Shown: positions 16,336 to 34,000 of the stretch, in pieces
Layout: every line of letters starts with the position of its first letter
Position numbering within the stretch: position 1 is the stretch's first letter
Origin: Cyanobium sp. C1_MAG_00004
GTDB taxonomy: Bacteria > Cyanobacteriota > Cyanobacteriia > PCC-6307 > Cyanobiaceae
Assembly: GCA_027486935.1 (NCBI GenBank)
Contig: JAIXOF010000134.1
Span: forward strand, 1-64,000
DNA: 64,000 bases
Reading direction: 5' to 3'
Made by a program: the position numbers and the translations under genes
The notes under the pieces: model-generated
What the model was told of the DNA's origin: nothing
Seen by the model: only the letters and a program-made list of their open reading frames with translations
Database searches by the model: none

Positions 16336-17041
16336 ATGTGCTTTTCAGCCTCGGCGAGCTTCACAGCCTCGGCCGTTCTGATGCCCCTGGGTCTGTACGC
16401 GACCCACATCGCCAAGCGAACGGACCAGAAGGACTACGTGCCGCTGGCCCTGACCCCCCTTTTTCTTTGGCGTGCAGCAATTCAGCGAAGGCCTGGTCTG
16501 GACTGGAATTGACAACGGCAAGGTCGAACCGCTGACGACCCTGGCCTCGCTCGCGTTTCTGTTCTTCGCCTACTGCTTCTGGATGATCTGGATCCCCTGG
16601 AGCGCCTGGTCCATCGCCCGCAGCACCGAAAGCAAAGCTCTGCTGCACCGCCTGAAATGGGTGGCGATCGTGGCGACGGTGCTGGGCATCGGCTTCTACC
16701 TGCCGGTGCTGTTCAACCCCCCAGCGGTTCAACCTTCGGTGCACAGCACCGGCCGACTGCTGTACGACATCAGCAACCTGCACAGCGCCTGGCACAACTT
16801 CGTCAACACCGAACCGGTCGGCGAGCTCGTCTACTGGGGCTTCATCATCCTGCCGCTGGTGGCCCTGCGCGACAAGGCCGTGAAGCTGTTCGGCATCCTG
16901 ATCTTCGTCTCGATCTTCCTGACCTGGTTCACCTACAGCAAGACGTTCAACTCGGTGTGGTGCTTCTACTGCGCCGTGTTGTCGATCTTCGTGATCTGGA
17001 TCATCAACCGGCCCCGTCTCAGCAGCCGCCAGGCCCCATGA
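16336..17041 (+). pseudogene. DUF6629-family membrane protein with a +1 frameshift
   Basis: The DUF6629 N-terminal signature MCFSASASF begins at the ATG at 16336 and reads on to PLALTPL. There the frame must move forward one base, inside a C6T5 run at 16454-16464, to continue as FFGVQQFSEGLVW and several membrane helices to the stop at 17041. Removing one T would restore a single frame of about 234 residues with seven hydrophobic segments. Without the shift, only a GTG-started fragment from 16472 (189 codons) would be made. The run could be a sequencing error, a true mutation or a site of +1 ribosomal slippage (CTT TTT C). Its stop overlaps the start of the next gene (ATGA). Confidence 0.8.
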
Positions 17042-17580
17042 TCGATGAGGCTCTTGGCGATCTGGCCAAGTGGCTGATGCAGGCCGATGTCGGACTCGGC
17101 CTGGTGGCCCTGGTGGGGTTGTCGATGTCGATCTCCCACCTGTTCGCCCTGGTGGCCAACCGGCTCACCCCCCGCCAGATCCTGATTCAGCTGATCCTGG
17201 ATGGATTGGTGTTGTCACTGGCCCTGGTGCTGGCCTGTTTGATCAACATGCTGTTGCTCGGCGCCTTCGCCGGCGCCGTACTCGATCCAGGCGAGCTGCT
17301 GGCCAAGCTTGGCCCTGCCCTGATCCCCGGGTTGTTCTATTGCTTTGTGGCAGCCCCTTACATCAGTGATCTGATCGCCAGTGTGATCTGGGCCATGATC
17401 CACCTCAACGTGGTCACCCTGTTGCACGTTCAGTTCGACGTGCCCTATGGCCAGGCGCTGCTGCTGGCCACACCGGGGTTTGTGGTGGCCTTACTGATGG
17501 TCATGGCCGTCTTTCACCAGGGCTGGCAGGGGGCGTACCGGCGACTGGCGAGCGAACTGGCCCCAAGCGCCGACTGCTGA
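17038..17580 (+). CDS. Hypothetical multi-pass membrane protein
   Basis: The 180-residue protein begins at the ATG overlapping the stop of the DUF6629 gene; the longer open frame upstream is antisense-like shadow. Four hydrophobic segments are seen (about 18-45, 50-80, 95-125, 140-165), with a short polar loop NRLTPRQ between the first two. It resembles YIP1-like four-helix proteins in layout only. Its stop overlaps the start of the next gene (TGATG). The gene order DUF6629, this gene, hydrolase-like gene suggests one transcript. The function is not recognised. Confidence 0.7.
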   Translation: MIDEALGDLAKWLMQADVGLGLVALVGLSMSISHLFALVANRLTPRQILIQLILDGLVLSLALVLACLINMLLLGAFAGAVLDPGELLAKLGPALIPGLFYCFVAAPYISDLIASVIWAMIHLNVVTLLHVQFDVPYGQALLLATPGFVVALLMVMAVFHQGWQGAYRRLASELAPSADC

Positions 17581-18674
17581 TGGCCCCCCTGCAGGCAATC
17601 CGCATCCAGCTGGCAGGTCTGCGGCGCCTGGGGCAACTGGTGGGCTGGCTGCTGTTGCTGAGCGGACTGAGCGCCGTGGCGATCGGCCTGCATGCGGGGC
17701 CCTTGCTGCTGACGGCCCTGTCGCCGCGGGATCTGGCACTGGTGCTGCAGGCGCTGGGCGTGCTGGGGCTCCTGTTGATCCCGATCAGCGGTGTGATCTC
17801 GGTGAGCTCCCAGTTCGCCTTCTGGAGAGGCTGGCTGGGGGGACTGCCGCAGCCCGCAGACCTGTTTGCTGACCCGGCTGGGGTAGCGGCCGGCGTCGGG
17901 CAGGCGAGCTGCACGATCGTCTACCTCGATGGCATTCACCAGAGTGAACGCGACCACCCTCCCCGGGTGGCGGCGTTTCTGGCCTTGCTGGAATCGCGTC
18001 TGCCCGCCCACATGGGCCTGTTCAAGGGGCTGGAGACCTACACGGTCACCCCGGCCAGGCTGGCCGACGACATCGGCGGCAGCTGGTTCTGGCGGCGCCT
18101 GTTCGCCCTGCAGGAGCACCACCCCAACGGCCTGATCAGCCTCATCTCTGCCGTTCTGGTGCAGGCCAACAACGTCATCAAAGTGGGCATCTCCTCGGAC
18201 CGGCGCTACGGGCCGATCCTCAATTACGAACTGGCGCTCAAGGTGGCCCAGCGGCTGGCAGAACAGGGTTTTCGCCCCGGCCAGGACCATGGCGGCCGGC
18301 CCCAGGAACTGGTGCTGCTGGGGTACAGCGGTGGCGGCGAGATGGCGCTGGGCATGGCTGATTACCTGCGGCGCATCTGCCAATGTCCGGTGCGCATCAT
18401 GACCTTCTGCGGGGTGTTCAGCGGCAACCAGTTGCTCGAACAGGTGGGCACGATCACCACGGTGGTCGGCGACCGCGACCCCGTCGCGGCATTCGGACGG
18501 ATCGCCTACCCCGGGCGTTCGCCGTTGCTGCCGCTGTCGAACTGGAACCGCGCCGTGGCCCGCGGGCAGGTGCAACGGCACTGCATCGACGGCCTGTCGC
18601 ACAACGGCCAGAGCGGTCCCTTCTCAGATCGCCACAGGGACGCGGTGATCGATGCCGTGATCAGCTACCTCTGA
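17580..18674 (+). CDS. Membrane-anchored alpha/beta-hydrolase-like protein
   Basis: The 364-residue protein has two N-terminal hydrophobic helices (about 18-45 and 55-80), then a soluble domain with an alpha/beta hydrolase-like nucleophile elbow GYSGGG (near residue 242), preceded by the strand ELVLLG. A late Asp in VVGDRDPVA and His in GLSHNGQSG sit where acid and catalytic His are expected. No family was recognised with confidence. It is translationally coupled to the membrane-protein gene upstream, and its 3' end overlaps the convergent hypothetical gene by 10 bases. Confidence 0.68.
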   Translation: MAPLQAIRIQLAGLRRLGQLVGWLLLLSGLSAVAIGLHAGPLLLTALSPRDLALVLQALGVLGLLLIPISGVISVSSQFAFWRGWLGGLPQPADLFADPAGVAAGVGQASCTIVYLDGIHQSERDHPPRVAAFLALLESRLPAHMGLFKGLETYTVTPARLADDIGGSWFWRRLFALQEHHPNGLISLISAVLVQANNVIKVGISSDRRYGPILNYELALKVAQRLAEQGFRPGQDHGGRPQELVLLGYSGGGEMALGMADYLRRICQCPVRIMTFCGVFSGNQLLEQVGTITTVVGDRDPVAAFGRIAYPGRSPLLPLSNWNRAVARGQVQRHCIDGLSHNGQSGPFSDRHRDAVIDAVISYL

Positions 18675-20119
18675 GCCCTCTCCTGGCTCGAGGCAGGGGC
18701 GGGCTGCAGACGATGCAACTGCTGAATCAGGGCAAATGGGCTGCACAGGGGCAGCGAAGCCTGCAGCCGGCGCCAGGCATCAGCAGAGCTGGTTCCATGA
18801 TGGGAAAAGTCCAGCGGCAGGGTGACCAGGGCCCGCCGGTAGGCCTCGAGCGCCGGCAGGGCAGAGGCATTCATGGCGCCTGCACCCTCCAAAGCGCTGC
18901 AACGGCGCAACAGCCGCTCGCGCCACAGGCCTGGCAGCACCAGGGGGAACAGGTCACAGCGGCCGCACAAAGCCTGTTGCAGGAGGGCGGTGCTGTCGAT
19001 GCAGAAGCCGAGACTGCCGTAGCCCCCGAGGCGCAGATGGCTTTCGCTGGCTTCGAGATTGTGCACATGGGCGATGAGCTGGCACAAGCCCATCAGCGCA
19101 GGGAGCTGAGCGTCTTCAAAAGGCTCGCCCAGGTAGCGAACCGTGCCGGTTTGGTGGTCGTTTTGCCAGGGACGCCGCAGATCATTGAGCCCATCCCAAC
19201 CGCATAGCCCTCCCGTCCCCTGGTACCACTGCAGGCGCAGGAGCTCGGGGCCGCAGCTGAGTTCCAGCTCAAGGGCGGTATGGGGCAGCAGCGACAGCAC
19301 CTCGTTGCCGTCGCGGTCGAGCAGACCGGTTCGCAGGGGCAGGGCCAGGGGGATCTGGCGGGGAACGTCGCCAGGCTCCACCAGGCAAGCCCCAAAGCCG
19401 AAGCTGGCGATGCTGCTGCGCAGACGCGCTCGCACGGTCCAGCCCTGGTCAGCGAACCAGGCCAGAAGCGAACCTCCGTCGCTGCAGCCCTCAAAGACAA
19501 AGAGGTCCCGGGTGATGACATTGGCGGCCAGCCGGTTCAACACCTGCGCCAGCAGGGCGTTGGCGCAACGCTGAGTTGGGCTCTGGCTGTAAGCCAGGCC
19601 GACATTGCTCCAACGCAGGCCCTGGCTGAGGTGCGCCCAACGCCCTGGGGTGTTGGTGGCCGTCGGTGCTGCAGCGGTCAAGGCGGGAACGCTGGCCCCA
19701 CCGGAAACAGCCTGCAGATCGGACAACCGGGATGGGAGCTCCAGGGTCACACCCAGCCAGTCAATGGCCTGGCGCTGCCACAGCTGCACCGCCGTGGGCG
19801 CGCCGCCCTCCCGCGGCGGCCAGAGATGGGCAAGATCATCAACCAGGGCCGCCAAAAACACCGGACTGATCAGTCCCTGTTGCAGCAGGGCACTGAGGCC
19901 CTGCAGACGGGGCGGCAACACCGCTGGCGCCAGACGCCAACGACGGGGCAACACCCACACCAGCGGATGCAGCACCGGATTGCCGAGATCGGCGAGCAGT
20001 CGGGTGATCAACTGCTCACGGCTCAGACCACTGCTCAGCAGGCTGCGCTCAAGGGCCTCATCGAGGCTGACCAGCGGCACGGGATCATGCCAGTCGGGTC
20101 CAAGGGCCAGCGGTTCCAA
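18665..20119 (-). CDS. Hypothetical protein, last gene of the oxidase/GMC array
   Basis: The 484-residue soluble protein matches no family I can name. It is Leu-rich and mostly helical, with a predicted beta-rich middle (TRDLFVFEGCSDGGSLLAWFADQGW, then LRLQWYQGTGGLCGWDGLNDLRRPW) and several Cys (for example GRCDLF, RRCSALEG). No signal peptide or membrane segment is seen. It starts 29 bases after the stop of the GMC oxidoreductase gene, on the same strand, which suggests a common transcript. If conserved next to GMC and GH63 genes elsewhere, it could be a partner of those enzymes; that is inference only. Confidence 0.6.
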   Translation of the reverse strand: MEPLALGPDWHDPVPLVSLDEALERSLLSSGLSREQLITRLLADLGNPVLHPLVWVLPRRWRLAPAVLPPRLQGLSALLQQGLISPVFLAALVDDLAHLWPPREGGAPTAVQLWQRQAIDWLGVTLELPSRLSDLQAVSGGASVPALTAAAPTATNTPGRWAHLSQGLRWSNVGLAYSQSPTQRCANALLAQVLNRLAANVITRDLFVFEGCSDGGSLLAWFADQGWTVRARLRSSIASFGFGACLVEPGDVPRQIPLALPLRTGLLDRDGNEVLSLLPHTALELELSCGPELLRLQWYQGTGGLCGWDGLNDLRRPWQNDHQTGTVRYLGEPFEDAQLPALMGLCQLIAHVHNLEASESHLRLGGYGSLGFCIDSTALLQQALCGRCDLFPLVLPGLWRERLLRRCSALEGAGAMNASALPALEAYRRALVTLPLDFSHHGTSSADAWRRLQASLPLCSPFALIQQLHRLQPAPASSQERAQR

Positions 20120-20148
20120 ACGCGAACACCTCCCTTAGGGCATTGACA

Positions 20149-21783
20149 TCAGCGACCGAGCCGTTCGCGCAGGTGATGGCCAACCCGAATGGCGTTGGCG
20201 ATCGCCGTCAGGGATGGATTCACTGCACCAATGCTGGGGAAGAAGCTGGTGTCGACCACATAAAGGTTGTCGAGCTCATGGGCTTTGCAGTTCACATCCA
20301 GAACTGAGCTGGCCGGATCGGTGCCAAACCGGCAGGTGCCAGCCTGGTGACCGACAGCAGCAATGCCCATGGCGTTCTTGATGTAAACCTGACGCTCGAC
20401 CAGGTGCTCCTTGAGATAGAGGCGATCCAACAGATTCTGCAACCTGTTCCAGAGGTGATCGGCCGCTGCCTGATTGTTGGGGGTGTACGCCAGATTGATG
20501 GCACCATCGGCTGTGATCGTGACCCGGTTATCAGGATCCGGCAGATCTTCGGTGGAGACCCAAAAATCAAGGGAGTGTTCAGCGATCTTGTCCATCGACC
20601 AATTGGGCATCAAAAATGTTTCCAATGGCGCATAACCCTTCATGATCGCGCCCCGCGTTTTGCCGGTCATCTGAATGTTGCCCATTGGATAGTCAAAATC
20701 GGCATCACCGAAATACCAATCGTTGACGGAGATCGTTTTCTGAAACACCGTCGGGTTGGGCTCATGGGACAGGGCGACAGCCGCCTTGCTGTTGTGGAAC
20801 ATGTAATTGCGACCGACCTGGTCGCTGCCATTGGCGAGGCCAAGGGGATGCCTGTCATTGGCGGACATCAGCAACAAGCGTGCTGTGTTGGCGGCTCCGC
20901 AGCTGACCACGACCAGATCGCCACTGACCCGCAACGGCTCACTATCACGAACCAAATGCACGGCCTGAACCGTCCGGCCACTGGGATCGGTTTCGAGCCG
21001 CCTGACCTCGGCCCGTGTCAACAGGGAGACATTCGCTGCAGCCAGTGCGGGCCTGACGCCGATCACGTCGGCATCGCTCTTGGCATGGACGAGGCAGGGG
21101 AACCCATCGCAACTGTTGCAGCGACGGCAACGGCTGAAGGGCAGATTGGCCTCATCCAGCATCACCCCGCTGGGTGCATGGAACGGATGCAATCCCGCTG
21201 CGCGCAGATCATCGGCAAGCCTGGCGATTCTGGGTTCATGCGAGATCGGCGCATGCGGGTAAGGAGCACTGGCCGGAGGCTCGGTTGGATCCTCACCCCG
21301 CAGGCCATGAACGTGATACATCTCCTCGGCCTTTTGGTACCAGGGCTCGAAGTCGCTGTAACGCAGGGGCCAGGCCGGCGAGATCCCGTCCACATGCGCA
21401 ACCTCTTCAAAATCGCGGGCGCGCAGGCGAAAATGGTGGGCGCCGTACATCTTGGTGGCGCCGCCGACAAAGTAATGACTACCGGGCTGGAATGGCTTGC
21501 CGTGCTTGTCGGTCCAGGTGTCCTTGGAGAGGTAGCGGCCCTGCTGGAACACCGCCTCAGCATCCCAGTTCTCGGGCTCCTGGGGTAGCCAGTCCCCGCG
21601 CTCGATCACCAAAATCCGCAGACCCGTGGGGGCCAGCACCCGCGCCAGGGTGCCCCCGCCGGCCCCACTGCCGATGATCACGACATCAAAGTGGTCACCG
21701 TTGCTCACCTGCAGCTGCCCAACCTTGGGCAAGGGCGAGGAGGTCCAGGACGGGCCGCTGAGTTCCTGCATGACGCTTGGCAA
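20149..21783 (-). CDS. GMC-family FAD oxidoreductase with Cys cluster
   Basis: The 544-residue flavoprotein of the glucose-methanol-choline family has an FAD site DVVIIGSGAGGGTLA (about 33-47) and a C-terminal NPSLTAIANAIRVGHHL block near the active-site His region (GHQAGTCRFG). A Cys cluster CRRCNSCDGFPC at 219-230 occupies the place of the CxxCxxC-type insert of some GMC enzymes and could bind a metal or Fe-S centre. No Tat or Sec signal is visible, so it is probably cytoplasmic. Substrates of the family are sugars, polyols or alcohols. It starts 18 bases after the GH63 gene. A second ATG at 21771 (MQELSG) is possible. Confidence 0.88.
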   Translation of the reverse strand: MPSVMQELSGPSWTSSPLPKVGQLQVSNGDHFDVVIIGSGAGGGTLARVLAPTGLRILVIERGDWLPQEPENWDAEAVFQQGRYLSKDTWTDKHGKPFQPGSHYFVGGATKMYGAHHFRLRARDFEEVAHVDGISPAWPLRYSDFEPWYQKAEEMYHVHGLRGEDPTEPPASAPYPHAPISHEPRIARLADDLRAAGLHPFHAPSGVMLDEANLPFSRCRRCNSCDGFPCLVHAKSDADVIGVRPALAAANVSLLTRAEVRRLETDPSGRTVQAVHLVRDSEPLRVSGDLVVVSCGAANTARLLLMSANDRHPLGLANGSDQVGRNYMFHNSKAAVALSHEPNPTVFQKTISVNDWYFGDADFDYPMGNIQMTGKTRGAIMKGYAPLETFLMPNWSMDKIAEHSLDFWVSTEDLPDPDNRVTITADGAINLAYTPNNQAAADHLWNRLQNLLDRLYLKEHLVERQVYIKNAMGIAAVGHQAGTCRFGTDPASSVLDVNCKAHELDNLYVVDTSFFPSIGAVNPSLTAIANAIRVGHHLRERLGR

Positions 21784-21801
21784 TCAATAGGGGGGTCTGA
21801 G

Positions 21802-24498
21802 CTATCCCGTCGGATAGCGGCTGAGCTGGTTGATCATCTTGGCCACCATCGCCGTCCAGCCGGTCTGGTGCGATGCGCCAATGCCGCGACCATGATCACC
21901 GTGAAAATATTCGTTGAACAGGATCAGATCGCGCCAGTGGGGGTCGTTCTGAAACAACGCAACGTCACCGTTGAACGGACGTCGTCCGTCAGCATCGCGC
22001 CGAAAGACATTGACCAGGCGCTGCTCAAGCTGCAGAGACACTTCCCACAGGTTCAGCCAGTTGCCAGACCGCGTCGGGAATTCAACCTTGAAGCTATCGC
22101 CGTAGTAGTGGGCGAACTTCTGCAGGGATTCAATCAACAGAAAGTTGGTGGGCATCCACACAGGACCGCGCCAGTTGGAATTGCCACCGAACATCGCCAC
22201 AGGGCTGTCTGCCGGCGAATAGGCCAGCACCTCATGGTCAGAACCCTCGGTGAACTGGTAAGGATTGGCGTCGTAAACCTTCGACAGGGCCCTCAGGCCG
22301 TAAGGCGAAAGAAACTCCTCTTCGTCGAACAATCGCTCGCAGATGCGGCGGAGTCGCTCTTCAGGAACCAAGGTGAAGAGCAAGCGATCGTTGCGCCATT
22401 GCCCCAGATTGGCGGCCAACCAGGTGGGGGTGGTGCGCTCGTGCACGAACCAGCCCATGCTCTTGAGCACGTCCAGAACCGGCAACCTTGAGACGGTCTC
22501 CACATCGAAGCTGGCAACGGCCAACAACGGAATCAGACCGGTCAACGAGCGCGTTCTCAGATAATCAGTTGTGCCATCGGGACGCTTGATGACGTCATAA
22601 TAAAAACCATCCTGCTCATCCCAGTTAACGTATCCACGTTGCCCAGGGGTGTTGAGGGTCAGGGCAAGCTGCACAAAGTCATAAACAAAGCGCTCACACA
22701 GATCAGAGTATTCAGGCTCCTCGGCCGAAAGCTCAACGGCAATCGCCAACAGATTGAGACTCAATGACGCCATCCAGGCTGTACCGTCGCACTGCTCAAT
22801 GCGACTGCCATCAGCCAGATGGAAGCGTCGATCAAAGATCGCAATGTTGTCGAGGCCGAGGAAGCCACCCTCGAACACATTGTCGCCGGAACGATCATTG
22901 CGGTTAGCCCACCAACCGTATTCCAGCATCAACTTTCTCAGCGATGAACGCAAAAAAGCAAGATCGGCCCGATCATGATTTTTGCGCTCAATCTGATAGA
23001 TCCGCATCGCCGCCCAGGCTCCGATCGGCGGGTTCGGATCCGACAGCGCCCATTCATACGCTGGTGTTTGCGCATTGGGCGCCGTGTAATGGGGCGTGCG
23101 CAACAGCATGCATTGCTGCTTGGCAGTCTGGGGATCGACGATCGCAAAGGCGACCGAGTGAAACATCAGATCCCACTGACAGAAATAGGGATACTCCCAG
23201 CAATCCGGCATCGAGATCACGTCGTGGGCGTGCAACCGGCTCCAGTGGGCAGTCTCCGTCTGCCAACGGTTTGCCGGAGGGGGAGGCTGGGTGGGATCGC
23301 CTTCGAGCCAGCGCGTCACACTCCAGCCGTAATACTTCTTGCCCCAGAACAAGCCAGCAATCGCCGCATGATGAATCAGACGATCATCGGCGCAGAGATT
23401 CGGTACGGCATGCTCCATGAACCCCTGCCACTCGCGCTCCCGTTGCGCCAACAGGTGTTCAAAGTCATTGCCAAAGGGATCCCGACTTGCATGGTCATCG
23501 GAGCGCAGGCGCAAACGCACCTGCCACTCCTCGCCGGAAGACAAGGTTCGTTGCAATACACGGGCAGCCTTTGTACCCCGTTGAGCTGGGTTGACGGCGT
23601 CCTCTTCACCATCAATCAGATAGCGATGAAAACCGTCTTTCTGATAGGGAGCTGTGTTGGGCTGCCCATAGAGTCGCTCCAGGTTAGTCTCGTTATCAGT
23701 GAACAACCAGGCACCGTGTTGATCACACTCAAGACCGTAAACGCCAAGCCCGGGAATATCAGAGGTCTGCAGCCGATCGCCTTGCAATGACAAAGGCAAT
23801 TCCCGTTCATCGGGATAGCCCCAGCTCCAAGTGTTGCGCAGCCATAGCGTGGGCAGCAGGGTCAGGGGGGCCGCATCGGGGCCACGGTTGATGACGCGGA
23901 TGTTGATCAGCAGATCGGTCGGCGAAGCCTTGGCGTATTCAATGAAGACGTCAAAATAGCGACTCTGATCAAAAATACCTGTATCAACCAATTCGAATTC
24001 GGGCTGATCACGACCGCGGCGAGCGTTTTCGTCGATCAACTGCTGATAAGGGAATGCAGCCTGGGGATATTTGTAAAGCCCACGCATGAAGCTATGGGTG
24101 GGGGTATTGGCGAGATGAAAGAAATACTCTTTCAGATCTTCGCCATGGTTCCCCTCAGGATTGCTGAGACCGTAGGGCCTCTCCTTGAGAATCGGATCTT
24201 GACCATTCCACAGTGCAAGGGAGAAACAGAGACGACACTGCTGATCACAGACACCAAGCAGACCATCCTCTCCCCAGCGGTAAGCCCGTGAGCGGGCGTG
24301 GTCATGGGGGAATGAGCGCCAGGCGTCACCATCGCTGGAATAGTCCTCACGCACAGTTCCCCATTGACGCTCTGGCAGATAACTGCCCCAGAGAGACCAG
24401 TCGCGGTGTCCATGGTCCCGTTCGGCCAGACGCCTCAGCTCTGAAGGCGCATCAGCCGGGGGTAACGGCACGGATGACGACATCGATGTCGAGGTCAT
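21802..24498 (-). CDS. GH63-like glycoside hydrolase (glucosidase)
   Basis: The 898-residue protein belongs to the MGH1/GH63 (mannosyl-oligosaccharide glucosidase-like) clan of (alpha/alpha)6-barrel hydrolases. An N-terminal beta domain (ERDWSLWGSYLPERQWGT, VREDYSSDGDAWRSFPHDHARSR) is followed by the barrel with CWEYPYFCQWDLMFHS, likely carrying the acid catalyst Asp, and the FGGNSNWRGPVWMPTNF segment typical of the family. It would remove terminal glucose from an alpha-glucoside. There is no signal peptide, so it acts in the cytoplasm. The ATG at 24498 overlaps the stop of the upstream GMC gene by 4 bases, showing translational coupling. Confidence 0.85.
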   Translation of the reverse strand: MTSTSMSSSVPLPPADAPSELRRLAERDHGHRDWSLWGSYLPERQWGTVREDYSSDGDAWRSFPHDHARSRAYRWGEDGLLGVCDQQCRLCFSLALWNGQDPILKERPYGLSNPEGNHGEDLKEYFFHLANTPTHSFMRGLYKYPQAAFPYQQLIDENARRGRDQPEFELVDTGIFDQSRYFDVFIEYAKASPTDLLINIRVINRGPDAAPLTLLPTLWLRNTWSWGYPDERELPLSLQGDRLQTSDIPGLGVYGLECDQHGAWLFTDNETNLERLYGQPNTAPYQKDGFHRYLIDGEEDAVNPAQRGTKAARVLQRTLSSGEEWQVRLRLRSDDHASRDPFGNDFEHLLAQREREWQGFMEHAVPNLCADDRLIHHAAIAGLFWGKKYYGWSVTRWLEGDPTQPPPPANRWQTETAHWSRLHAHDVISMPDCWEYPYFCQWDLMFHSVAFAIVDPQTAKQQCMLLRTPHYTAPNAQTPAYEWALSDPNPPIGAWAAMRIYQIERKNHDRADLAFLRSSLRKLMLEYGWWANRNDRSGDNVFEGGFLGLDNIAIFDRRFHLADGSRIEQCDGTAWMASLSLNLLAIAVELSAEEPEYSDLCERFVYDFVQLALTLNTPGQRGYVNWDEQDGFYYDVIKRPDGTTDYLRTRSLTGLIPLLAVASFDVETVSRLPVLDVLKSMGWFVHERTTPTWLAANLGQWRNDRLLFTLVPEERLRRICERLFDEEEFLSPYGLRALSKVYDANPYQFTEGSDHEVLAYSPADSPVAMFGGNSNWRGPVWMPTNFLLIESLQKFAHYYGDSFKVEFPTRSGNWLNLWEVSLQLEQRLVNVFRRDADGRRPFNGDVALFQNDPHWRDLILFNEYFHGDHGRGIGASHQTGWTAMVAKMINQLSRYPTG

Positions 24499-26012
24499 TG
24501 CAGGGAGCCCGACACGGCTTCGGCGATGCGCAGGGCGTTGGCAATCACCGTCAGGCCGAATCCCATCATCGGGCACGAAGGAAAGATGCTGGCATCAGCG
24601 ATGGTGAGGTTGATCAGCTCATGGCTACGGCCCTGCAGGTCCACCACCGATGTGGCTGGGTTCTCACCCATGCGGCAGGTGCCGCAGGCATGACCGACCG
24701 CCGACAGGGGCGCTTCGCCGCGGGGATGGGTGGGCGCCGCCTTGACGACCTGGGTCAGGGGATCGGCTTCGACGGCCTTGAGCACATCGATCCAGCGGTA
24801 CACCAACCGGTCATGGGCTTCCCGGTTGTTGGGCTCGTAATTGACCTGCAACATCCCGTCCCGCAGGGTGACGCGGTTGTGGGGCTCGGGCAGCACCGGA
24901 CTCATGGCCCACCAGGTGATCGAACGGGAGGCGAGTTGCTGCAGGCCGAAATCGGGCATCAACCGGGTGACCAGGGACAGGACCGGTGGCGACTCGGCAA
25001 ACAGGGCATCCTGCAGGACTCCACCCCCGTTCTGGATCGCCCCAAGTGGGAACGAGACGTTCTGATCTCCCCAGAGGAAGTCGGTAATGCCAAAGGAACG
25101 GCCATAGCGACCGGTGTTGGCGGCAGCGGCCAGCTGCAAGATGGAGGTCAGCTGCAGCTTCATCAGATTGCGGCCGACCTGATCGGATCCGTTGGCCAGT
25201 CCCCGCGGGTGGCGTTCACAACCAGAGCGCAGCAGGATCGCCGGGGTGTTGATCGCACCGGCAGCCAAAACGACCTGATCGGCGCTAAACAACCAGGCCT
25301 GGCCATCGATCGTGGCCTCAACGCCCCTGACCTCATGGCCGGCTGGATTGACGTGAAGGCGGCTGACGCGGGCACCGCCACGCACCACGACCGATGGGCA
25401 CTGGCGGGCAGGATCGACACCGAACAGCTCAGCATCGCCACTGGGATCGACCGGCGACTCTGACCAGCTGAGCGGCAAGGGATAGGGATGCACATCCTGG
25501 CGGGCCAGGCATCCCTGCAACTCGCTGAAGAAGGGTTCAAGCGGCCGGGGCGCATGGGGATAGGGCTGTCCTCTGTGGGGTGCCTGGGGGTCGGCACCCT
25601 GCTGACCATGAACGCGATACAGGGCTTCGGCCTTGTCGTACCAGGGCTCCAGTTCCGAGTAGTCCAGCCCCCATGACGGCGCCCGGCCCTCCTGCAGGGT
25701 CAACCCCTCGAATTCACGGGCCCGCATGCGCTCGAGCACACCGCCCCAGATCTTGGTGTTGCCTCCGAAGGCATAGATGGTCTGCGGCGAGAAGGGATCA
25801 CCATCGGTGCCGAACCACTGTTCAGCAGGGTGATAACGGTCCTTGCGGAACAGATCGACATCAGCCACATTCTGATCGACCAGTGGCATCGGGCCACCCC
25901 TCTCCAACAGGAGAACCCGATGGCCCCGCTGCCCCAGATCACTGGCAACGGTGGCTCCGGCAGCGCCACTGCCGATGACGATCACGTCGTAATGGCTGTC
26001 GTCAATGATCAT
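24495..26012 (-). CDS. GMC-family FAD oxidoreductase without Cys cluster
   Basis: The approximately 505-residue flavoprotein starts at the ATG at 26012 (MIIDDSHYDVIVIGSG), 19 bases after the stop of the cytochrome oxidase subunit III gene. The FAD motif GSGAAGATVASDL and a C-terminal GFGLTVIANALRIAEAV block identify the family. It is a paralogue of the enzyme at 20149-21783 (shared GGNTKIWGG versus GGATKMYGA, and the ANGSDQVGRN block), but the Cys-rich insert is replaced by a short segment (SWSESPVDPSGDAELFGVDP). It probably oxidises a sugar or polyol; the acceptor is unknown. Confidence 0.87.
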   Translation of the reverse strand: MIIDDSHYDVIVIGSGAAGATVASDLGQRGHRVLLLERGGPMPLVDQNVADVDLFRKDRYHPAEQWFGTDGDPFSPQTIYAFGGNTKIWGGVLERMRAREFEGLTLQEGRAPSWGLDYSELEPWYDKAEALYRVHGQQGADPQAPHRGQPYPHAPRPLEPFFSELQGCLARQDVHPYPLPLSWSESPVDPSGDAELFGVDPARQCPSVVVRGGARVSRLHVNPAGHEVRGVEATIDGQAWLFSADQVVLAAGAINTPAILLRSGCERHPRGLANGSDQVGRNLMKLQLTSILQLAAAANTGRYGRSFGITDFLWGDQNVSFPLGAIQNGGGVLQDALFAESPPVLSLVTRLMPDFGLQQLASRSITWWAMSPVLPEPHNRVTLRDGMLQVNYEPNNREAHDRLVYRWIDVLKAVEADPLTQVVKAAPTHPRGEAPLSAVGHACGTCRMGENPATSVVDLQGRSHELINLTIADASIFPSCPMMGFGLTVIANALRIAEAVSGSLQ

Positions 26013-26031
26013 GATGAGTGCGGGATCAGGG

Positions 26032-26637
26032 TCAGCTGCGTTGCCAGACGTAGATGAGAAGGAACAGAATGATCCAGATGACGTCAACGAAGTGCCAGAA
26101 CAGGGATGTGGCCTGAACCCCCTGTTCGCCGCCTTTGTAGTTGCCTGGAATGAAGGATTTGATCAGCATCAAGGTCATCAGGAACACGCCGGTGGCGACA
26201 TGCAGACCGTGGAAACCTGTCAGCAGATAGAAGGTGCCGCCAAAGGTCCCTGACGTGAAACCGAACTTGAGGCTGCTCCACTCGACCGCTTGGCCATAGA
26301 GGAAATAGGCCCCCAGCGCCATGGTGAGCAGCCAAAAGGCGCGAAAGCCCCAGAGACTGCCTTTGGCCATCGCCCGTTCGGCCAGATAGATCGTCCCTGA
26401 GCTGGAAACGAGCACAATCGAATTGATCAGCGGCATCTGCCATTCCAGGCCGTCAACTCCAGGGGGCAGCCAATCGAGGGCGCTGGTCTTGAGCAGGGCG
26501 TAGCCACTGAAGAAGGCCAGAAAGATGACACTCTCTGAGCAGAGAAAGATGATGAAGCCGGTGAGGTTGTGACTCTCGTGGCCCTCAGCATGGTGCCCCT
26601 CTGGAGCGGGGGTCGGCGTCGGATAAGCGGTGGTCAT
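26032..26637 (-). CDS. ctaE: Heme-copper oxidase subunit III (ARTO type)
   Basis: The 201-residue subunit III has five to seven hydrophobic helices. A His-rich N-terminus (EGHHAEGHESHN) precedes CSESVIFLAFFSGY, which carries the conserved Ser-Glu of the first helix; the TFYLLTGFHGLHVATGV and SLFWHFVDVIWIILF blocks are typical of CtaE. Its start overlaps the subunit I stop by 4 bases. It stabilises the oxidase and its proton uptake path. Gene order C-D-E matches the cyanobacterial alternative respiratory terminal oxidase operon (ctaEII in that nomenclature). Confidence 0.92.
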   Translation of the reverse strand: MTTAYPTPTPAPEGHHAEGHESHNLTGFIIFLCSESVIFLAFFSGYALLKTSALDWLPPGVDGLEWQMPLINSIVLVSSSGTIYLAERAMAKGSLWGFRAFWLLTMALGAYFLYGQAVEWSSLKFGFTSGTFGGTFYLLTGFHGLHVATGVFLMTLMLIKSFIPGNYKGGEQGVQATSLFWHFVDVIWIILFLLIYVWQRS

Positions 26638-28316
26638 CGTGCGGACTCCAGTTGTTCAGCTTGGATCAGGGCGGCTTCGATCTCGGCCTGATGCTCGACG
26701 AGAGGCTCACCGCTGCCATAGCCGTAAGGCCTGGACAGCACGACGGGAACGTGTTCACCGAAGTTGTCCTCAGCCGGTGGCGACGGCAGCAGCCATTCCA
26801 GGCCAATGGCATTCCACGGATTGTGGGTCGCCCTGGGGCCGCGAACCCAGGAGCTGACCATGTTCAACAGGAAGGGAATCACCGAAACACCGAGCAGGAA
26901 AGCCCCCAAACTGGCGATGACGTTCCAGAAGGTGAATTCGGGGTCGTAGCTGGAGACGCGGCGCGGCATCCCCATCAGGCCGAGGGGATGCATCGGCAAG
27001 AAGTTGAGGTTGGCCCCGACGAAGGTCAACAGGAAATGCACCTTGCCCAGCCCCTCATAGGGCATGCGACCGGTGAACTTGGGGAACCAGTGATAGATGG
27101 CCGCAAAAATACCCAGAACAGCCGCGCCATAAATGACGTAATGAAAATGGCCGACAACAAAATAGGTATTAGAGACATGGATATCGATCGGCACCGTCGC
27201 CAGCATGATGCCTGTGACGCCGGCAAAGACGAAGTTGAACAGACCACCCAGGCAGAACAGCATCGGTGTGGTCAGCCTGATCTTGCCCCGCCAGAGGGTG
27301 CCCAACCAGGCAAACACCTTCACACCGGTGGGAACAGCAATCAACATGGTGGTGAACATGAACAGATTGCGCATCCATTCAGGTACGCCACTGGGGAACA
27401 TGTGGTGCACCCAGACGACCAGGCCCAGACCAACGATGATGAACGAAGCCACGGCCACATAGACGTAACCGAACAGCGGCTTGCGGGAATAGACCGGGAA
27501 CAGCTCAGAGAAGATGCCGAAAACCGGCAGAATGATCACATAGACGGCCGGGTGGGAATAGAACCAAAAGAAGTGCTGATAGAGCACCGGATCACCACCA
27601 CCGGCGGGGTCATAAAAGCTGGTTCCAGCAACAAGATCCATCAGCAGCATGATCGCGCCGCCGGTCAGGGAGGGCAGGCCGATCAACTGGAGGCTCTGGG
27701 CAGCCAGGGCGGTCCAGCAGAACACCGGCATGCGGAACCAGCCCATGCCGGGGGCGCGCATGCGAATGATCGTGGTGACGAAGTTCACCGCCCCCATGAT
27801 CGACGAGACACCAGAAAGGGCCACGGCCGTGAGCCACAGACCCTGGCCACTGACCAGATGGCCCAGGGGGTTCTGAATGCTGACCGGCGGGTAGGACCAC
27901 CAACCCGAATAGGCCGGTCCACCGGGCACAAAGAAACTGCTCATCAGCAGCACGCCGAAAATCGGCACCAACCAGAAGGCCACGGCATTGAGCCGGGGAA
28001 ACGCCATGTCAGGCGCACCGATCATGGTGGGAATCAACAGATTGTTGAGCCCATTGAGCACCGGAAAGACGAACAGGAACAGCATCACCGTCCCATGCAT
28101 CGTGTAGATGCCGTTGTAAACGGTGCGATCCACCAGATCGGCTTCGGGCGTGATCAGTTCACCGCGAATGATCATGGCCAGCAGGCCACCGACCAGAAAG
28201 AAGAAGAAGGCCAGCACGATGTACTGGATGCCGATCACCTTGGCGTCGGTGTTGAACGTGAAGTAACGGGTCCAGGAGGGCTTGGGCTCGCTGGCCGGGA
28301 AGGTGGCAAGGGTCAT
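26634..28316 (-). CDS. ctaD: Heme-copper oxidase subunit I, A2 type
   Basis: The 560-residue catalytic subunit reduces O2 to water while pumping protons. Ligands are in place: His74 (MHGT, low-spin heme), His254 and Tyr258 region, the His304-His305 CuB pair (WVHHMF), and the FHYV histidines (about 390-392). The key motif reads YSHPAVY (253-259), with Tyr-Ser before His and Ala where A1 enzymes have Glu in GHPEVY, so it is an A2-type enzyme with the alternative proton channel. The start ATG at 28316 lies 3 bases from the subunit II stop. It corresponds to ctaDII of ARTO. Confidence 0.94.
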   Translation of the reverse strand: MTLATFPASEPKPSWTRYFTFNTDAKVIGIQYIVLAFFFFLVGGLLAMIIRGELITPEADLVDRTVYNGIYTMHGTVMLFLFVFPVLNGLNNLLIPTMIGAPDMAFPRLNAVAFWLVPIFGVLLMSSFFVPGGPAYSGWWSYPPVSIQNPLGHLVSGQGLWLTAVALSGVSSIMGAVNFVTTIIRMRAPGMGWFRMPVFCWTALAAQSLQLIGLPSLTGGAIMLLMDLVAGTSFYDPAGGGDPVLYQHFFWFYSHPAVYVIILPVFGIFSELFPVYSRKPLFGYVYVAVASFIIVGLGLVVWVHHMFPSGVPEWMRNLFMFTTMLIAVPTGVKVFAWLGTLWRGKIRLTTPMLFCLGGLFNFVFAGVTGIMLATVPIDIHVSNTYFVVGHFHYVIYGAAVLGIFAAIYHWFPKFTGRMPYEGLGKVHFLLTFVGANLNFLPMHPLGLMGMPRRVSSYDPEFTFWNVIASLGAFLLGVSVIPFLLNMVSSWVRGPRATHNPWNAIGLEWLLPSPPAEDNFGEHVPVVLSRPYGYGSGEPLVEHQAEIEAALIQAEQLESAR

Positions 28317-28319
28317 GGC

Positions 28320-29264
28320 TCAGCCGTCATGGGGCAGGGTGTTGGATCCAGGCACATTGACCTGTGGTGGCGGAGCCGGTGGCACCGTGGCCCAGCCAGC
28401 CTTGGTGGATTGGCCACGCTGGGCAAATTCACGCGAGGCATCGCTGATGCCGCTCTGCAGGGGTTGGCGGGCGGCAGCCTGCAGCCAGGCCTGATGGTCA
28501 GCGGCGCTTTCCACCACCACATCGGCCTGGTTGGCCGCAAACCAGGTGCCGCTGAACTGAGAATCCCGCAGCCGGTAGCGGCCCTCGCGCGTCGGGGTGA
28601 GATTGAAGTCGATCGCCCGACCGGGGATCACGTCCTGCTTGACGCGAAATGCGGGGATGTAGATGCCGTGCAGCACATCGTCGGAAACGAGCCGGAACGT
28701 CACCGGCTGGTTGACGGCCAGATGCAATTCGGTGGCGGCGACATCGGCACCTGGGTAGCGGAATTCCCATGACCACTGGCGAGCGATCACCTCGACCTGC
28801 TCGGCGGGGAGACGATCGCCTGGATAACCACCCGCGTCTTCGACCGGGCTGCGCAGGTGAATGTGCTCCATCGGGCCGAGCATGCCCAGGGTGGTGTTGA
28901 CGCGCATGGCGTAGACCGCGATCGCCATCACCAGAACCAGGGGGATGGCGGTCCAGATCACTTCAAGCCGGGTGTTGCCCTCGATCGGCTCGGCATCACT
29001 TTCGTCGTACTTGTCGGCGCGGTGCATCAGCAGCACCCAGGCCATGACAGAGACAACGCCGCCAAACACAAAGGTGCCGACGGCGGTTTCAAAACTGAAC
29101 AGCCCATCCACCAGGGGGGCAGCGGTGGAAGCCTGGACGGGGAGCCAGCGGTAGGCCTGCTGGCCCATCCAGACGCTGAGCACGACGAGCAGGGCCACCC
29201 AAGCGGCGAGAGCCACAACGGACAACGGGCTGAACCGGGGACCCTGGGCCTGAGACGGAGTCAT
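28320..29264 (-). CDS. ctaC: Heme-copper oxidase subunit II lacking the CuA site
   Basis: The 314-residue subunit has two N-terminal membrane helices (about 15-36 and 60-82, and a further hydrophobic stretch at 101-119) and a periplasmic or lumenal cupredoxin domain. The cupredoxin block DVLHGIYIPAFRVKQDVIPG keeps the first CuA His (199), but the CxxxCxxxH site is destroyed: Asp234, Ser238 and Phe242 replace Cys, Cys and His, and Asn245 sits at the Met position. It therefore cannot hold CuA, as in ctaCII of cyanobacterial ARTO and quinol oxidases. A quinol is the likely donor. Its C-terminal tail is Pro-rich. Confidence 0.92.
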   Translation of the reverse strand: MTPSQAQGPRFSPLSVVALAAWVALLVVLSVWMGQQAYRWLPVQASTAAPLVDGLFSFETAVGTFVFGGVVSVMAWVLLMHRADKYDESDAEPIEGNTRLEVIWTAIPLVLVMAIAVYAMRVNTTLGMLGPMEHIHLRSPVEDAGGYPGDRLPAEQVEVIARQWSWEFRYPGADVAATELHLAVNQPVTFRLVSDDVLHGIYIPAFRVKQDVIPGRAIDFNLTPTREGRYRLRDSQFSGTWFAANQADVVVESAADHQAWLQAAARQPLQSGISDASREFAQRGQSTKAGWATVPPAPPPQVNVPGSNTLPHDG

Positions 29265-29887
29265 GGCAGGGCCTCCTTGAGATCGACACCGGAAGCCAAC
29301 AATTGGTCAGCGGTGATGTGCACGCCAAACTCACCGGCCAGTTCGGCACCAAGGGTGCCGTGCAGCCCGATCACCAGAAAGAGACCGAGCCCGACCAGCA
29401 GATACAGCCATTGCACCTGGCGACCCATGTTGCGGCGCCACTGAAAGCGCTGGTAGCCGCGCCAGATGGTCATGGCGACGATCACCAGCAGGATGGCGAC
29501 ACCACCGACGCCATGCAACAGCATCGTCTCCATGCTTTGCAGGCCGATGGTGCTGGTGACCCCGGGCAGGGGCTCGGCCAGCAGCATCTCGTAGAAGCCG
29601 GCGGCCACCGTCAGAAACGTGACGGCGGCACAGGCCAGCAGGTTGTACCAGCCCACATCGTGAAAGCCGGCTCGGGTGATCGGCAGGGCCAGCAGCCGAA
29701 ACACCCGCTTTTCAAGTGGGTAGAGGGCGCCAGCAATGTCAAAGGCGATCGCAATCACAAACAGGCCGATCGTCAGATGGACCAGGTTGGGGTGGATCGG
29801 CACGGCATAGGGCAGACCATTGGCGCCCAGCTGACCACTCAGCTGCTCGATCGGCGCATCAGGAGTGACAAACAGCGTTGATGCCAT
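29261..29887 (-). CDS. DUF2231-type membrane protein (oxidase-associated)
   Basis: The 208-residue protein has four hydrophobic helices and the DUF2231 opening motif VPIHPNLVHLTIGLFVIAIAFD. A second His-containing helix (LLHGVGGVAILLV) also fits a heme- or quinone-binding layout, though ligands are not established. It overlaps ctaC by 4 bases and follows the other DUF2231 gene by 3 bases. Similar pairs accompany cyanobacterial oxidase genes. It may assist assembly or electron delivery, which is inference. Confidence 0.82.
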   Translation of the reverse strand: MASTLFVTPDAPIEQLSGQLGANGLPYAVPIHPNLVHLTIGLFVIAIAFDIAGALYPLEKRVFRLLALPITRAGFHDVGWYNLLACAAVTFLTVAAGFYEMLLAEPLPGVTSTIGLQSMETMLLHGVGGVAILLVIVAMTIWRGYQRFQWRRNMGRQVQWLYLLVGLGLFLVIGLHGTLGAELAGEFGVHITADQLLASGVDLKEALP

Positions 29888-29890
29888 GGT

Positions 29891-30388
29891 TCAGACCAGT
29901 CCTGCGCGGGCGGCTTCGACAACGGGCACCGTGTGCAGGCCGTAAACCCAGATCAACTGATTGCCCAGCATCACCTGCACGACAATCAGGGCCGAGAGCA
30001 CCCCACCGGCCCCCAGAAAGCTGAGGGGCAGCTGCTGGGGATCGCGACTGCGAATCACGTAACGCCAACCTGAAAGAAGGGACAGCACACCGGCCAGGGA
30101 CCAGCCGATGGTGCTGTGCAGGTTGAGGATGTCGCTGGAGGCGCCATAGGGGTTGGCCAGGCCCGCCTCGACTTGGCCAAAGATGATGGCCACAAAGATC
30201 GCCACCGTGGCGAAAAGAAGGTTCCAGAAGCTGACCTCAAACAGCTGCACCTTGCGAAAGGCGACGCCGATCAGATCGAACACGAAGCTGATCAACCCCA
30301 TCGCGATCACAAAATGGACGACGATCGGGTGAATCGTGTCCATCCAGGGAAGGTTGTGATCGTTGAGCGGCGGCAGCAGCTCGATCAT
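29891..30388 (-). CDS. DUF2231-type membrane protein, first gene of the array
   Basis: The approximately 165-residue protein starts at the ATG at 30388 (MIELLPPLNDHN), chosen over an upstream extension in the same frame because it leads directly into TIHPIVVHFVIAMGLISFVFD, the DUF2231 hallmark. Four hydrophobic helices are visible, with His in ILNLHSTIGWSL. It is the first gene of the minus-strand array containing the oxidase, with about 170 bp of divergent intergenic DNA upstream that should hold the promoter. Confidence 0.82.
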   Translation of the reverse strand: MIELLPPLNDHNLPWMDTIHPIVVHFVIAMGLISFVFDLIGVAFRKVQLFEVSFWNLLFATVAIFVAIIFGQVEAGLANPYGASSDILNLHSTIGWSLAGVLSLLSGWRYVIRSRDPQQLPLSFLGAGGVLSALIVVQVMLGNQLIWVYGLHTVPVVEAARAGLV

Positions 30389-30558: not shown

Positions 30559-31077
30559 GTGTCGGTTCCGGCCTCTCCCACCCTGCGCTGGCTCACCGCC
30601 GCCCTGCTGTTCGCGGCAGCTGGGTTGTCCATCGTGGTGCCCTTTGTTTCGGCCACCTTGCTGACGATCGCCATCGGGGCTGTGGCCGTGATCGCTGGAG
30701 TCAGCCAGGTGCTGCGCCTCACCGGCGAAAACGACCTCAAGGGCAAGGTCTTCCGGCTGCTGTCGGGGCTCCTTTATCTGGGTGGCGGCGTCTGGGTTCT
30801 GGCGTTCCCAGTCGACAGCGAAGTGAGCCTGACCCTGTTCGTGGGCTTTCTGCTGGCCTTTGAAGGGGTGATGGAACTGGCCGCCGCTGCCACCGGCAAC
30901 GGTCCTGCCCGTGGGCTTGTGTTGATCGACGGCATCGTCACGGCCGTTCTGGGGGGGATGCTGATCGCCGAATGGCCCACTGACAGCATCTGGGCCATCG
31001 GCACGCTGTTCGGCATCGGTCTGGCGTTCTCGGCGATCAACCTGATCTCGGCACCTCAGCCCGGGGCCAATCCGTAA
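30559..31077 (+). CDS. HdeD/DUF308-family membrane protein
   Basis: The 172-residue protein with six hydrophobic helices, in repeats typical of DUF308/HdeD (acid-resistance membrane protein family), starts at a GTG (30559). Motifs are FAAAGLSIVVPFVSATLLT and FLLAFEGVMELAAA, followed by a final AEWPTDSIWAIGTLFGIGL repeat. The role in cyanobacteria is unknown. It is divergent from the oxidase array, and its 3' end overlaps the convergent 5-oxoprolinase by 22 bases. Confidence 0.82.
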   Translation: MSVPASPTLRWLTAALLFAAAGLSIVVPFVSATLLTIAIGAVAVIAGVSQVLRLTGENDLKGKVFRLLSGLLYLGGGVWVLAFPVDSEVSLTLFVGFLLAFEGVMELAAAATGNGPARGLVLIDGIVTAVLGGMLIAEWPTDSIWAIGTLFGIGLAFSAINLISAPQPGANP

Positions 31078-34000
31078 CCCCCTCCTCCGGGGGTCTCGAT
31101 GCGAAGACCGTCACCGGGCTGCAGCTCCAACGCACAGCAGCCCGGCAGTACCTGCTCGCTGCCATCCGCACGCAGCAGCAGATTGAACCCGCACTGCCCC
31201 GGCTGTCCCGCCGCCAACCCCAGAGGCGGCACCAGCCTGGAGCCACTGATCAGCGACAGCGCAACGGGCTCCAGAAACCTGAGCTGACGAACCACCCCGT
31301 CGCCACCAGACCACTGCCCCCGCCCGCCTGAGCCCTGGCGGATGGCAAAGCGCTCGAGCCGCACCGGCAGCCGCGTTTCGAGCACCTCCGGATCGGTGAG
31401 GCGCGAATTGGTCATGTTGGTCTGCACCGCCCCACAGCCATCGAAACCCGGCCCCGCTCCCGCACCGCCTCCGATCGTTTCGTAGTACTGAACCCGATCG
31501 TTGCCGAAGGTCAGGTTGTTCATCGTGCCCTGGGCTCCGGCCATCGCCCCCAGTGCCGCAAACAGGGCATTGGCCAGAGCCTGAGAGATCTCGACATTGC
31601 CGGCGACGACCGCTGCCGGCGCTGTCGGGTTGAGCAGCGATCCTGACGGCACCACCAGCTCAATCGGTTCAAAACAGCCGGCATTGAGCGGAATCGACTC
31701 GCCCACCAGGGTGCGCAGCACATAAAGCACCACAGCCCGGGTGACTGCCAGCGGAGCGTTGAGATTGCCCGAATGCTGGCCCGAAGTGCCCGAGCAATCG
31801 ATCCGCAGACGCTGACGGCGGCGGTCGACCTGCACGGCCACGGCGATGCAGCCGCCGTGATCGAGAGCAACGCTGCAGGCCCCATCCTGCAGACGGCCGA
31901 TCAGCCGGCGCACGGCAGCCGCCGCATTGGTCTGGACATGGCCCATGTAGGCGAGCACCTGGGCGAGGCCCTGGCGCGCGATCAGATCGGCCAGGGCCTC
32001 GACACCGCGGCGGTTGGCCGCCACCTGGGCCTGCAGGTCGGCCAGCAGCAGATCGGGGTTGCGCACCGGATGGGGGCCGGCGGCAAACCGTTGCCGCCAC
32101 AACGGCTCGTCAAGGGCGCCCTGCTCCAGCAGGAACAGGTTGTCGAGCAGCAGTCCCTCGTCGTCAATGCTGCGGCTGAGGGCCGGCATCGACCCCGGCG
32201 TGATCCCGCCCACATCGGCATGGTGACCGCGGCAGGCGACAAACAGCACCGGCGGGCTGTCGGGGGAAGCGCCAGGGGCAAACACCGGGGTGATGGCGGT
32301 GATGTCCGGCAGGTGGGTACCGCCGTTGTAAGGGTTGTTGGCGACCACCACATCACCGTCACGCAGGCGGCGGCGTTGACCGCTGGCGATCGCCGCCAGC
32401 AGGCTGGTCACGCTCTCGCCCATCGATCCCAGGTGCACCGGGATGTGGGGTGCATTGGCCACCAGGCGGCCGCCCCCATCAAACAGCGCACAGGAAAAGT
32501 CGAGCCGTTCGCGCATGTTGAGCGAGCGGGCGCTCTGTTGCAGCTGCTGGCCCATCTGCACAGCGATCGCCGCAAAGCGGTGGTGGTACAGCTCGAGCTG
32601 CACCGGATCCACCGCGTTTGCCGGTTGCCGTTGCTGCCCTGGCAAGCCGCCCGCGCCCTGGGGGGCCGCGGTGACCTCGAGCAACAGGGCGCCACCCGCC
32701 AGGATCTGCAGCTGCCAACCGGGCTCGAGCACCAGGGTGGTAGTGGCATCGAGCACCAGCGCCGGCCCCTGTAGCCGCTGGCCGCTGGGCAGCTGGGAAC
32801 GCCACAGCAACGGCACGCTCTGCCAGGTGCCGCCTGTCCAGAGCGGGGCGCTGGCAGGCAGCCGGGGCGAAGCGGGTGCCTGCCACACACCGGTGCCCTG
32901 AGGCTCGATCGCCTGCAGCTCCAGCAGCAGCCGTTCGACCACCAGGGGCCCCGGGGCGGGGCGGTAGCCATAGCGCTGCTGATGGCTCGCGGCGTAGGCC
33001 TCGCTGAGCGCATCCGTCAGTGCTGCGGGTTCAAGCCCCGCCGGCCAGGGCAGTTCAAGGCCCCGTTCCTGGGCCGGCTGGCGCAGCTCCAACCGCAGCT
33101 GCAGCGCGGGCGGGCCCGCCGCCGGCACCATCTGGGCCAGCTGGGCGCTGCCCTGGGACTGCAGCTCGCTGACCATGTCCTGCAGGGCGACCAGGGTCCG
33201 GGGGTTCAGGGGCAGGGCCACCACTCGTTCGAGCAGCAACGACTGGGGCGCCTGGCCGATCCCATAGGCCGACAGCACCCCCGCCAGCGGATGGATCAGC
33301 ACCCGCTGCATGCCCAGTTCGGCCGCCAGACGGCAGGCGTGCTGGGCTGCCGCACCGCCGTAACTGACCAGCAGGGCCGCGCGGGGGTCGTGCCCCTGCT
33401 CGATCGAGATGCGCCGGATCGCCGCGGCCATGGTCTCGACCGCGATCTGCAGGGCCCCTTCGGCCAGCTCTTCGACGCTGGCCGCCAGGCCCGCCCGGGC
33501 CATGGACGCCTGCAAGTCGGCAAAGCCCCGTTGCACGGCCGTGGGGTCCAGGGGCTGATCGCCATCGGGACCAAACAGGGCCGGCAAGGCGCCGGCGGGC
33601 AGCCGACCCAGCAGCACATTGGCGTCGGTGATGGTCAACGGTCCGCCGCGCCGGTAGGCCGCCGGCCCGGGATCGGCCCCGGCCGAAGCGGGGCCCACCT
33701 GCAGACGATCGCCGTCAAACTGCAGGATCGAGCCCCCACCGGCGGCCACGGTGTGAATGGGCAACATCGGAGCCTGCAGGTGCAGTCCCGCGATCGCCGT
33801 CTCTGAGCTGCGCTGCCAGTGCAGTGCGCCGTCGCTGCAGCCGGCGTGGAACACATCGGTCGAGGTGCCACCCATGTCGAACCCCACCACCGGCTGCAGC
33901 GGCAACCCGGCCTGCTGCAAGGCCTCGCGGGCCACGGCAATCGCCCCCACCATGCCGCCGGCGGGGCCCGACAAAATCGTGTCCTTGGCCAGCAACCAGG

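Follow-up and report, generated by a model that had tools for sequence, protein, structure and literature searches.

The stretch of Cyanobium sp. C1_MAG_00004 DNA analyzed here (the window; 64,000 nucleotides of contig JAIXOF010000134.1) carries an array in which the genes of an alternative respiratory terminal oxidase (ARTO) are followed by two flavoproteins of the GMC family (GMC1 and GMC2) and a GH63-like glycoside hydrolase, and the locus raises the question of whether these genes form one unit or several. The nine genes are all encoded on the minus strand, spanning 30388 down to 18665, and in array order are spaced by 3, −4, 3, −4, 19, −4, 18, and 29 bases. The Pfam assignments in the same order were DUF2231, DUF2231, COX2, COX1, COX3, GMC, MGH1-like/GH63, and GMC; the ninth product (484 residues) belonged to no family. 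The gene calls and measured gaps agreed with the nine-gene array and the coordinates given in the original prediction. Its treatment of the array as a single unit was not upheld, as the distribution across genomes separated the genes into three units lying side by side. The array was judged to consist, probably, of a six-gene ARTO operon, a separately evolving GH63-GMC2 pair, and one unrelated gene. Gene order, co-occurrence, the loss of catalytic residues from GMC1, and the strictness of the GH63-GMC2 pairing are direct observations. Chance was ruled out for the ARTO-GMC1 and GH63-GMC2 units because they are conserved across many genomes; the same cannot be said of the 484-residue gene and its place in the array.

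The linkage of GMC1 to the oxidase was apparent from a first search for GMC1 relatives, where GMC1 directly followed ctaE at all eight cyanobacterial loci found. For the Cyanobiaceae, 251 genomes were searched with GMC1 and with ARTO ctaC, the latter being distinguished from other ctaC by score (full-length ARTO sequences, at least 286 bits; others, at most 172 bits; three split or partial matches between). GMC1 was matched in 120 genomes and ARTO ctaC in 116, all of them within the 120. The start of GMC1 was 2.27 to 2.45 kb past ctaC in 112 of the 116, which equals the length of ctaD plus ctaE and places GMC1 directly behind ctaE. The remaining four had an insertion before GMC1 (4.7 and 6.5 kb in two genomes) or GMC1 on another contig (two genomes). 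Matches to GMC1 only were found in G103, G105, G220, and G226, three of which (G103, G105, and G226) are assemblies of 240 to 390 contigs. The G220 match was rejected as being really GMC2, since it showed 40% identity over part of the query and overlapped the GMC2 position.

For the class-wide comparison, 129 genomes with an ARTO-level ctaC were present among the matches listed, all but one outside the Cyanobiaceae. Among these matches, GMC1 was located 2 to 6 kb downstream of ctaC on the same strand in 99 genomes from 14 families and elsewhere in the assembly in 10; it was missing among the matches listed in 20, ten of which belong to one family (f32). Maps of 40 loci showed the order DUF2231-DUF2231-ctaC-ctaD-ctaE-GMC1 repeatedly, and the two mapped loci of family f32 showed a five-gene DUF2231-DUF2231-ctaCDE version with GMC1 absent. 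At mapped loci outside the Cyanobiaceae, the gene past GMC1 varied by lineage and was often on the opposite strand, suggesting that GMC1 closes the operon. Two small genomes (G228 and G172; 1.7 and 2.0 Mb) retained ARTO and GMC1 and gave no GH63 match. The check for conserved adjacency in other genomes established that the neighbors are not strain specific: the oxidase-GMC linkage is class-wide, and GH63 lies directly after GMC1 in 60 of the sampled Cyanobiaceae genomes. The earlier view that an oxidase-GMC-glucosidase linkage is nonstandard for ARTO failed as regards GMC1, whose position after the oxidase is a frequent feature of ARTO operons in cyanobacteria.

The oxidase itself was assigned to the type-1 ARTO, or quinol-type, oxidases from its subunit II, which lacks CuA ligands, and from the two genes (here DUF2231) ahead of ctaC-D-E. 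In the ARTO CtaC sequences shown, the CuA ligand block (C-E-C-H-M) was replaced by RDSxxSGTxFAxxQ, and no Cys column was found at 95% among 40 ARTO sequences, confirming the predicted absence of CuA. The second heme-copper oxidase in the same genome retains CuA: CAELCGPYHGGM. The YSHPAVY motif was present in all 40 CtaD sequences and is no discriminator of ARTO because the other oxidase of the genome has it too. The nearest described arrangement is the type-1 ARTO (Qox) operon of Anabaena PCC 7120, which comprises the five genes alr2729-alr2730-coxB3-coxA3-coxC3 (PMC6616624). The genes of its CuA-less bo3-type oxidase have the same order, with two genes ahead, and it resembles the two f32 DUF2231-ctaCDE loci. 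It differs in that here, and in most of the sampled ARTO-bearing cyanobacteria, a sixth gene, GMC1, stands after ctaE; furthermore, alr2729 and alr2730 are likened by position and not as DUF2231 proteins. No mention of GMC1 in an ARTO operon was found in the literature searched, which did not extend to subscription reviews of cyanobacterial terminal oxidases, and priority is not claimed.

What GMC1 might do was addressed through its residues. It passed the curated cutoffs for GMC_oxred_N and GMC_oxred_C (35.9 and 63.8 bits), and its best PDB relatives were flavin adenine dinucleotide (FAD)-dependent glucose dehydrogenase and fructose dehydrogenase. When 43 ARTO-linked GMC1 sequences were aligned with the solved dehydrogenases, the column of the catalytic Asn held Gly in 21, Ser in 21, and Pro in 1, the column of the catalytic His held His in 8 of 43, with Tyr, Asn, and Ser being common, and the four Cys columns were gaps in 43/43. 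The catalytic pair of GMC enzymes, His with either Asn or a second His, is absent from GMC1. The loss was deduced to be clade-wide since all 13 GMC2 sequences examined keep both residues. In the GMC tree, a branch supported at 100/98 set GMC1 apart on one side. Lacking the conserved pair, GMC1 is a poor candidate for a sugar dehydrogenase.

GMC2 presented a different distribution. Within the Cyanobiaceae, 75 genomes had GMC2 and 79 had this type of GH63; GMC2 was directly behind GH63 in 75/75, and no genome had GMC2 without GH63. In ten genomes (genera g5 and g35), GH63 was situated 13 to 22 kb upstream of GMC1, and in the single locus of this separated type that was mapped (L120) the GH63-GMC2 pair was intact, away from ARTO. 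Judged from these sequences, GH63-GMC2 is a strict pair, separable from the oxidase, and constitutes a picocyanobacterial module. GMC2, one of four GMC genes in the genome, aligned nearly full length (E 4.5e-37) with FAD-glucose dehydrogenase (PDB 6a2u) and the large subunit of fructose dehydrogenase (7w2j), and both catalytic residues (His and Asn) are shared, as is a Cys-rich stretch at the corresponding location. The His, the Asn, and four Cys were retained in 13/13 GMC2 sequences, the latter as a C-x2-C-x2-C-x4-C motif that suggests an Fe-S cluster like the one in FAD-glucose dehydrogenase, although its spacing is unlike that of the solved enzyme. Compared with these enzymes, the array lacks genes for a small subunit and a cytochrome c (no Pfam domains of the gamma or multiheme cytochrome c subunits were found among the nine gene products), and both the Asn and the Cys segment are missing from GMC1. 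The array GH63 shares PF22422 and PF03200 with the mannosylglycerate/glucosylglycerate hydrolases of GH63 (PMC6608630) and with eukaryotic glucosidase I, but at about 900 residues it aligned with its best solved relative only at E 0.003 to 0.007 and over C-terminal pieces only. Its AlphaFold2 model, built from a five-row alignment, had a mean predicted local distance difference test score (pLDDT) of 35 and was too poor for a fold search. A second GH63 paralogue, 46% identical, is present in the same genome (G000:C170:1525-4167), and related second copies occur in many Cyanobiaceae.

These data bear directly on the chain envisaged by the original prediction, in which GH63 would free glucose from an alpha-glucoside, both GMC proteins would oxidize it, and quinol would carry the electrons to the CuA-less oxidase and oxygen. 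The tight gene order, the FAD-glucose and fructose dehydrogenases as top PDB matches for both GMC proteins, and the catalytic pair kept by GMC2 are all consistent with such a chain. However, the pair is lost in GMC1, GMC1 follows ARTO in many genomes where GH63 is not beside it, the ten genomes above have GH63 13 to 22 kb from ARTO, and the subunits that accompany FAD-glucose dehydrogenase are missing from the array. Since GMC1 has lost the pair and GMC2 travels with GH63, separable from the oxidase, the chain has no support where GMC1 is concerned and is no more than possible for GMC2, the sugar-type enzyme of the two; as a whole it was considered very improbable. The GH63-GMC2 pair would most likely carry out intracellular hydrolysis of an alpha-glucoside followed by oxidation of a product, and its genes, standing directly after ARTO in many Cyanobiaceae, are probably transcribed with it.

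For GMC1, 115 near-invariant positions were identified, the GMC1-specific ones including W314, D335, F338, E340, W367, H400, D401, and R402. This indicates that GMC1 is under constraint and argues against decay. Such positions, and the operon shared with a CuA-less oxidase, would also fit an active dehydrogenase of some other metabolite that has rebuilt its active site and delivers electrons to plastoquinone for ARTO. Against this, neither of the GMC positions holds a conserved catalytic base, and no membrane segments were predicted for GMC1, which appears to be cytosolic; this explanation was regarded as possible but rather unlikely. A role in assembly, stability, or cofactor maturation of ARTO, with a vestigial flavin, would account for the perfect co-occurrence in the Cyanobiaceae and for the loss of the ancestral pair, but family f32 makes ARTO without GMC1, and this explanation was held to be improbable.

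GMC1 is best read as a dedicated partner flavoprotein of ARTO that is strongly conserved and appears to co-evolve with ctaC and ctaD. The Mantel correlations were 0.88 for GMC1-ctaC, 0.86 for GMC1-ctaD, and 0.90 for ctaC-ctaD, the GMC1 values being matched in 0 of 2,000 permutations, and correlation of this kind among related genomes is in part shared species history. That qualification weighs against the partner assignment, as do several other points: the f32 oxidases lacking GMC1 imply that it is dispensable for oxidase activity as such, the co-transcription of the genes was inferred from their spacing, the window's copy of GMC1 keeps the His, with Gly at the Asn position, and GMC1 may employ other residues for an oxidation. 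As a partner of ARTO, GMC1 is expected to bind FAD and would most likely pass electrons to or from the oxidase or the quinone pool, or else tune or assemble the oxidase. Sugar oxidation is most likely not its role because the FAD-binding fold is kept and the alcohol-oxidizing active site of the GMC family is lost.

Each of the two DUF2231 proteins has four invariant His across the ARTO loci (Table 1), which would suit heme binding as in a heme-binding membrane cytochrome; a literature search on DUF2231 found nothing related to ARTO. In Synechocystis 6803, an ARTO mutant reduces less ferric iron and takes up less iron (reviewed in PMC7676907); ARTO is known from picocyanobacteria, and its genes show enrichment in low-iron Prochlorococcus (PMC10119275). 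These reports, together with the invariant His, would accord with GMC1 and the DUF2231 proteins acting in the reported ferric-reductase role of ARTO. Neither protein type has a direct link to iron, however, and GMC1 is seemingly cytosolic, so that this role was deemed doubtful, with a low probability. It was further hypothesized, as an idea that is itself quite unlikely, that GMC1, the two DUF2231 proteins, and CtaCDE make up a six-subunit oxidase whose direct electron-exchange partner is ferric iron or a flavin carrier in the cytosol.

The last gene of the array had been put forward as a natural candidate for a specific partner. This was rejected, as the 484-residue protein was directly behind GMC2 only in L008 and in four of the sampled genomes (a partial fifth case is possible), and recurs away from ARTO beside the same two genes. 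It was present in 44 of the 251 Cyanobiaceae genomes, otherwise far from ARTO. In the window, its gene and a convergent gene (17580-18674) share 10 bases at the 3′ end of the latter, which itself stands after a membrane-protein gene (17041-17580), and at three loci away from ARTO (L081, L076, and L082) it is likewise convergent to orthologues of these two. Its AlphaFold2 model (pLDDT 77.5) had no match among solved folds. The gene is incidental and probably no part of the system.

Table 1. Genes of the array, in array order, with the evidence for each assignment
Feature	Coordinates	Strand	Evidence
DUF2231 membrane protein a, ARTO operon gene 1	29891..30388	-	PF09990 E 6.8e-34; H20, H25, H91, H152 invariant, 38 sequences
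DUF2231 membrane protein b	29261..29887	-	PF09990 E 6.5e-37; H32, H37, H125, H190 invariant, 35 sequences
ctaC, ARTO subunit II, without CuA ligands	28320..29264	-	PF00116/PF02790; ligand block replaced
ctaD, ARTO subunit I	26634..28316	-	PF00115 E 5e-154; YSHPAVY motif
ctaE, ARTO subunit III	26032..26637	-	PF00510 E 1e-31
GMC1, GMC-fold flavoprotein, probable sixth and last ARTO operon gene; catalytic Asn replaced by Gly, no Cys cluster	24495..26012	-	PF05199/PF00732; co-occurrence 116/116; residue alignment
GH63/MGH1-like glycoside hydrolase; ATG start overlaps GMC1 stop by 4 bases	21802..24498	-	PF22422 63.1 bits, PF03200 31.5 bits, both above cutoff
GMC2, FAD-glucose-dehydrogenase-like GMC, His and Asn intact, C-x2-C-x2-C-x4-C; strict GH63 partner	20149..21783	-	structure matches, alignment, adjacency
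484-residue protein, no known family; probably outside the system	18665..20119	-	no Pfam match; distribution, neighborhoods, model

A scan for terminators gave 19 matches (8.5 expected), nearly all within genes, and none was taken as a real terminator. Upstream of the ARTO operon and on the same strand, the window carries a fused 5-oxoprolinase/hydantoinase-type gene (31056-34757), with a divergent DUF308 gene between, and this neighborhood recurs in several relatives (L007 to L009). Two variants of the operon were also observed. In Cyanobium sp. FGCU6, a second ARTO copy (L014, 10130-11809) is degenerate: ctaC is gone, as is ctaD except for a fragment, into which DUF2231 continues. Two genomes of family f23 (L102 and L103) have an extra open reading frame of 175 to 181 residues between ctaC and ctaD.

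ARTO occurs widely among cyanobacteria, and links to the reduction of iron and to ocean populations at low iron have been described (PMC7676907, PMC10119275). The present analysis corrects the simple sugar-respiration reading of this locus and sets out GH63-GMC2 as a separate picocyanobacterial module. GMC1 emerges as what would be an overlooked part of ARTO, kept class-wide, missing in one family, and without the active site typical of the GMC superfamily. If the six-subunit hypothesis were true, ARTO in most cyanobacteria would not be a simple plastoquinol oxidase.

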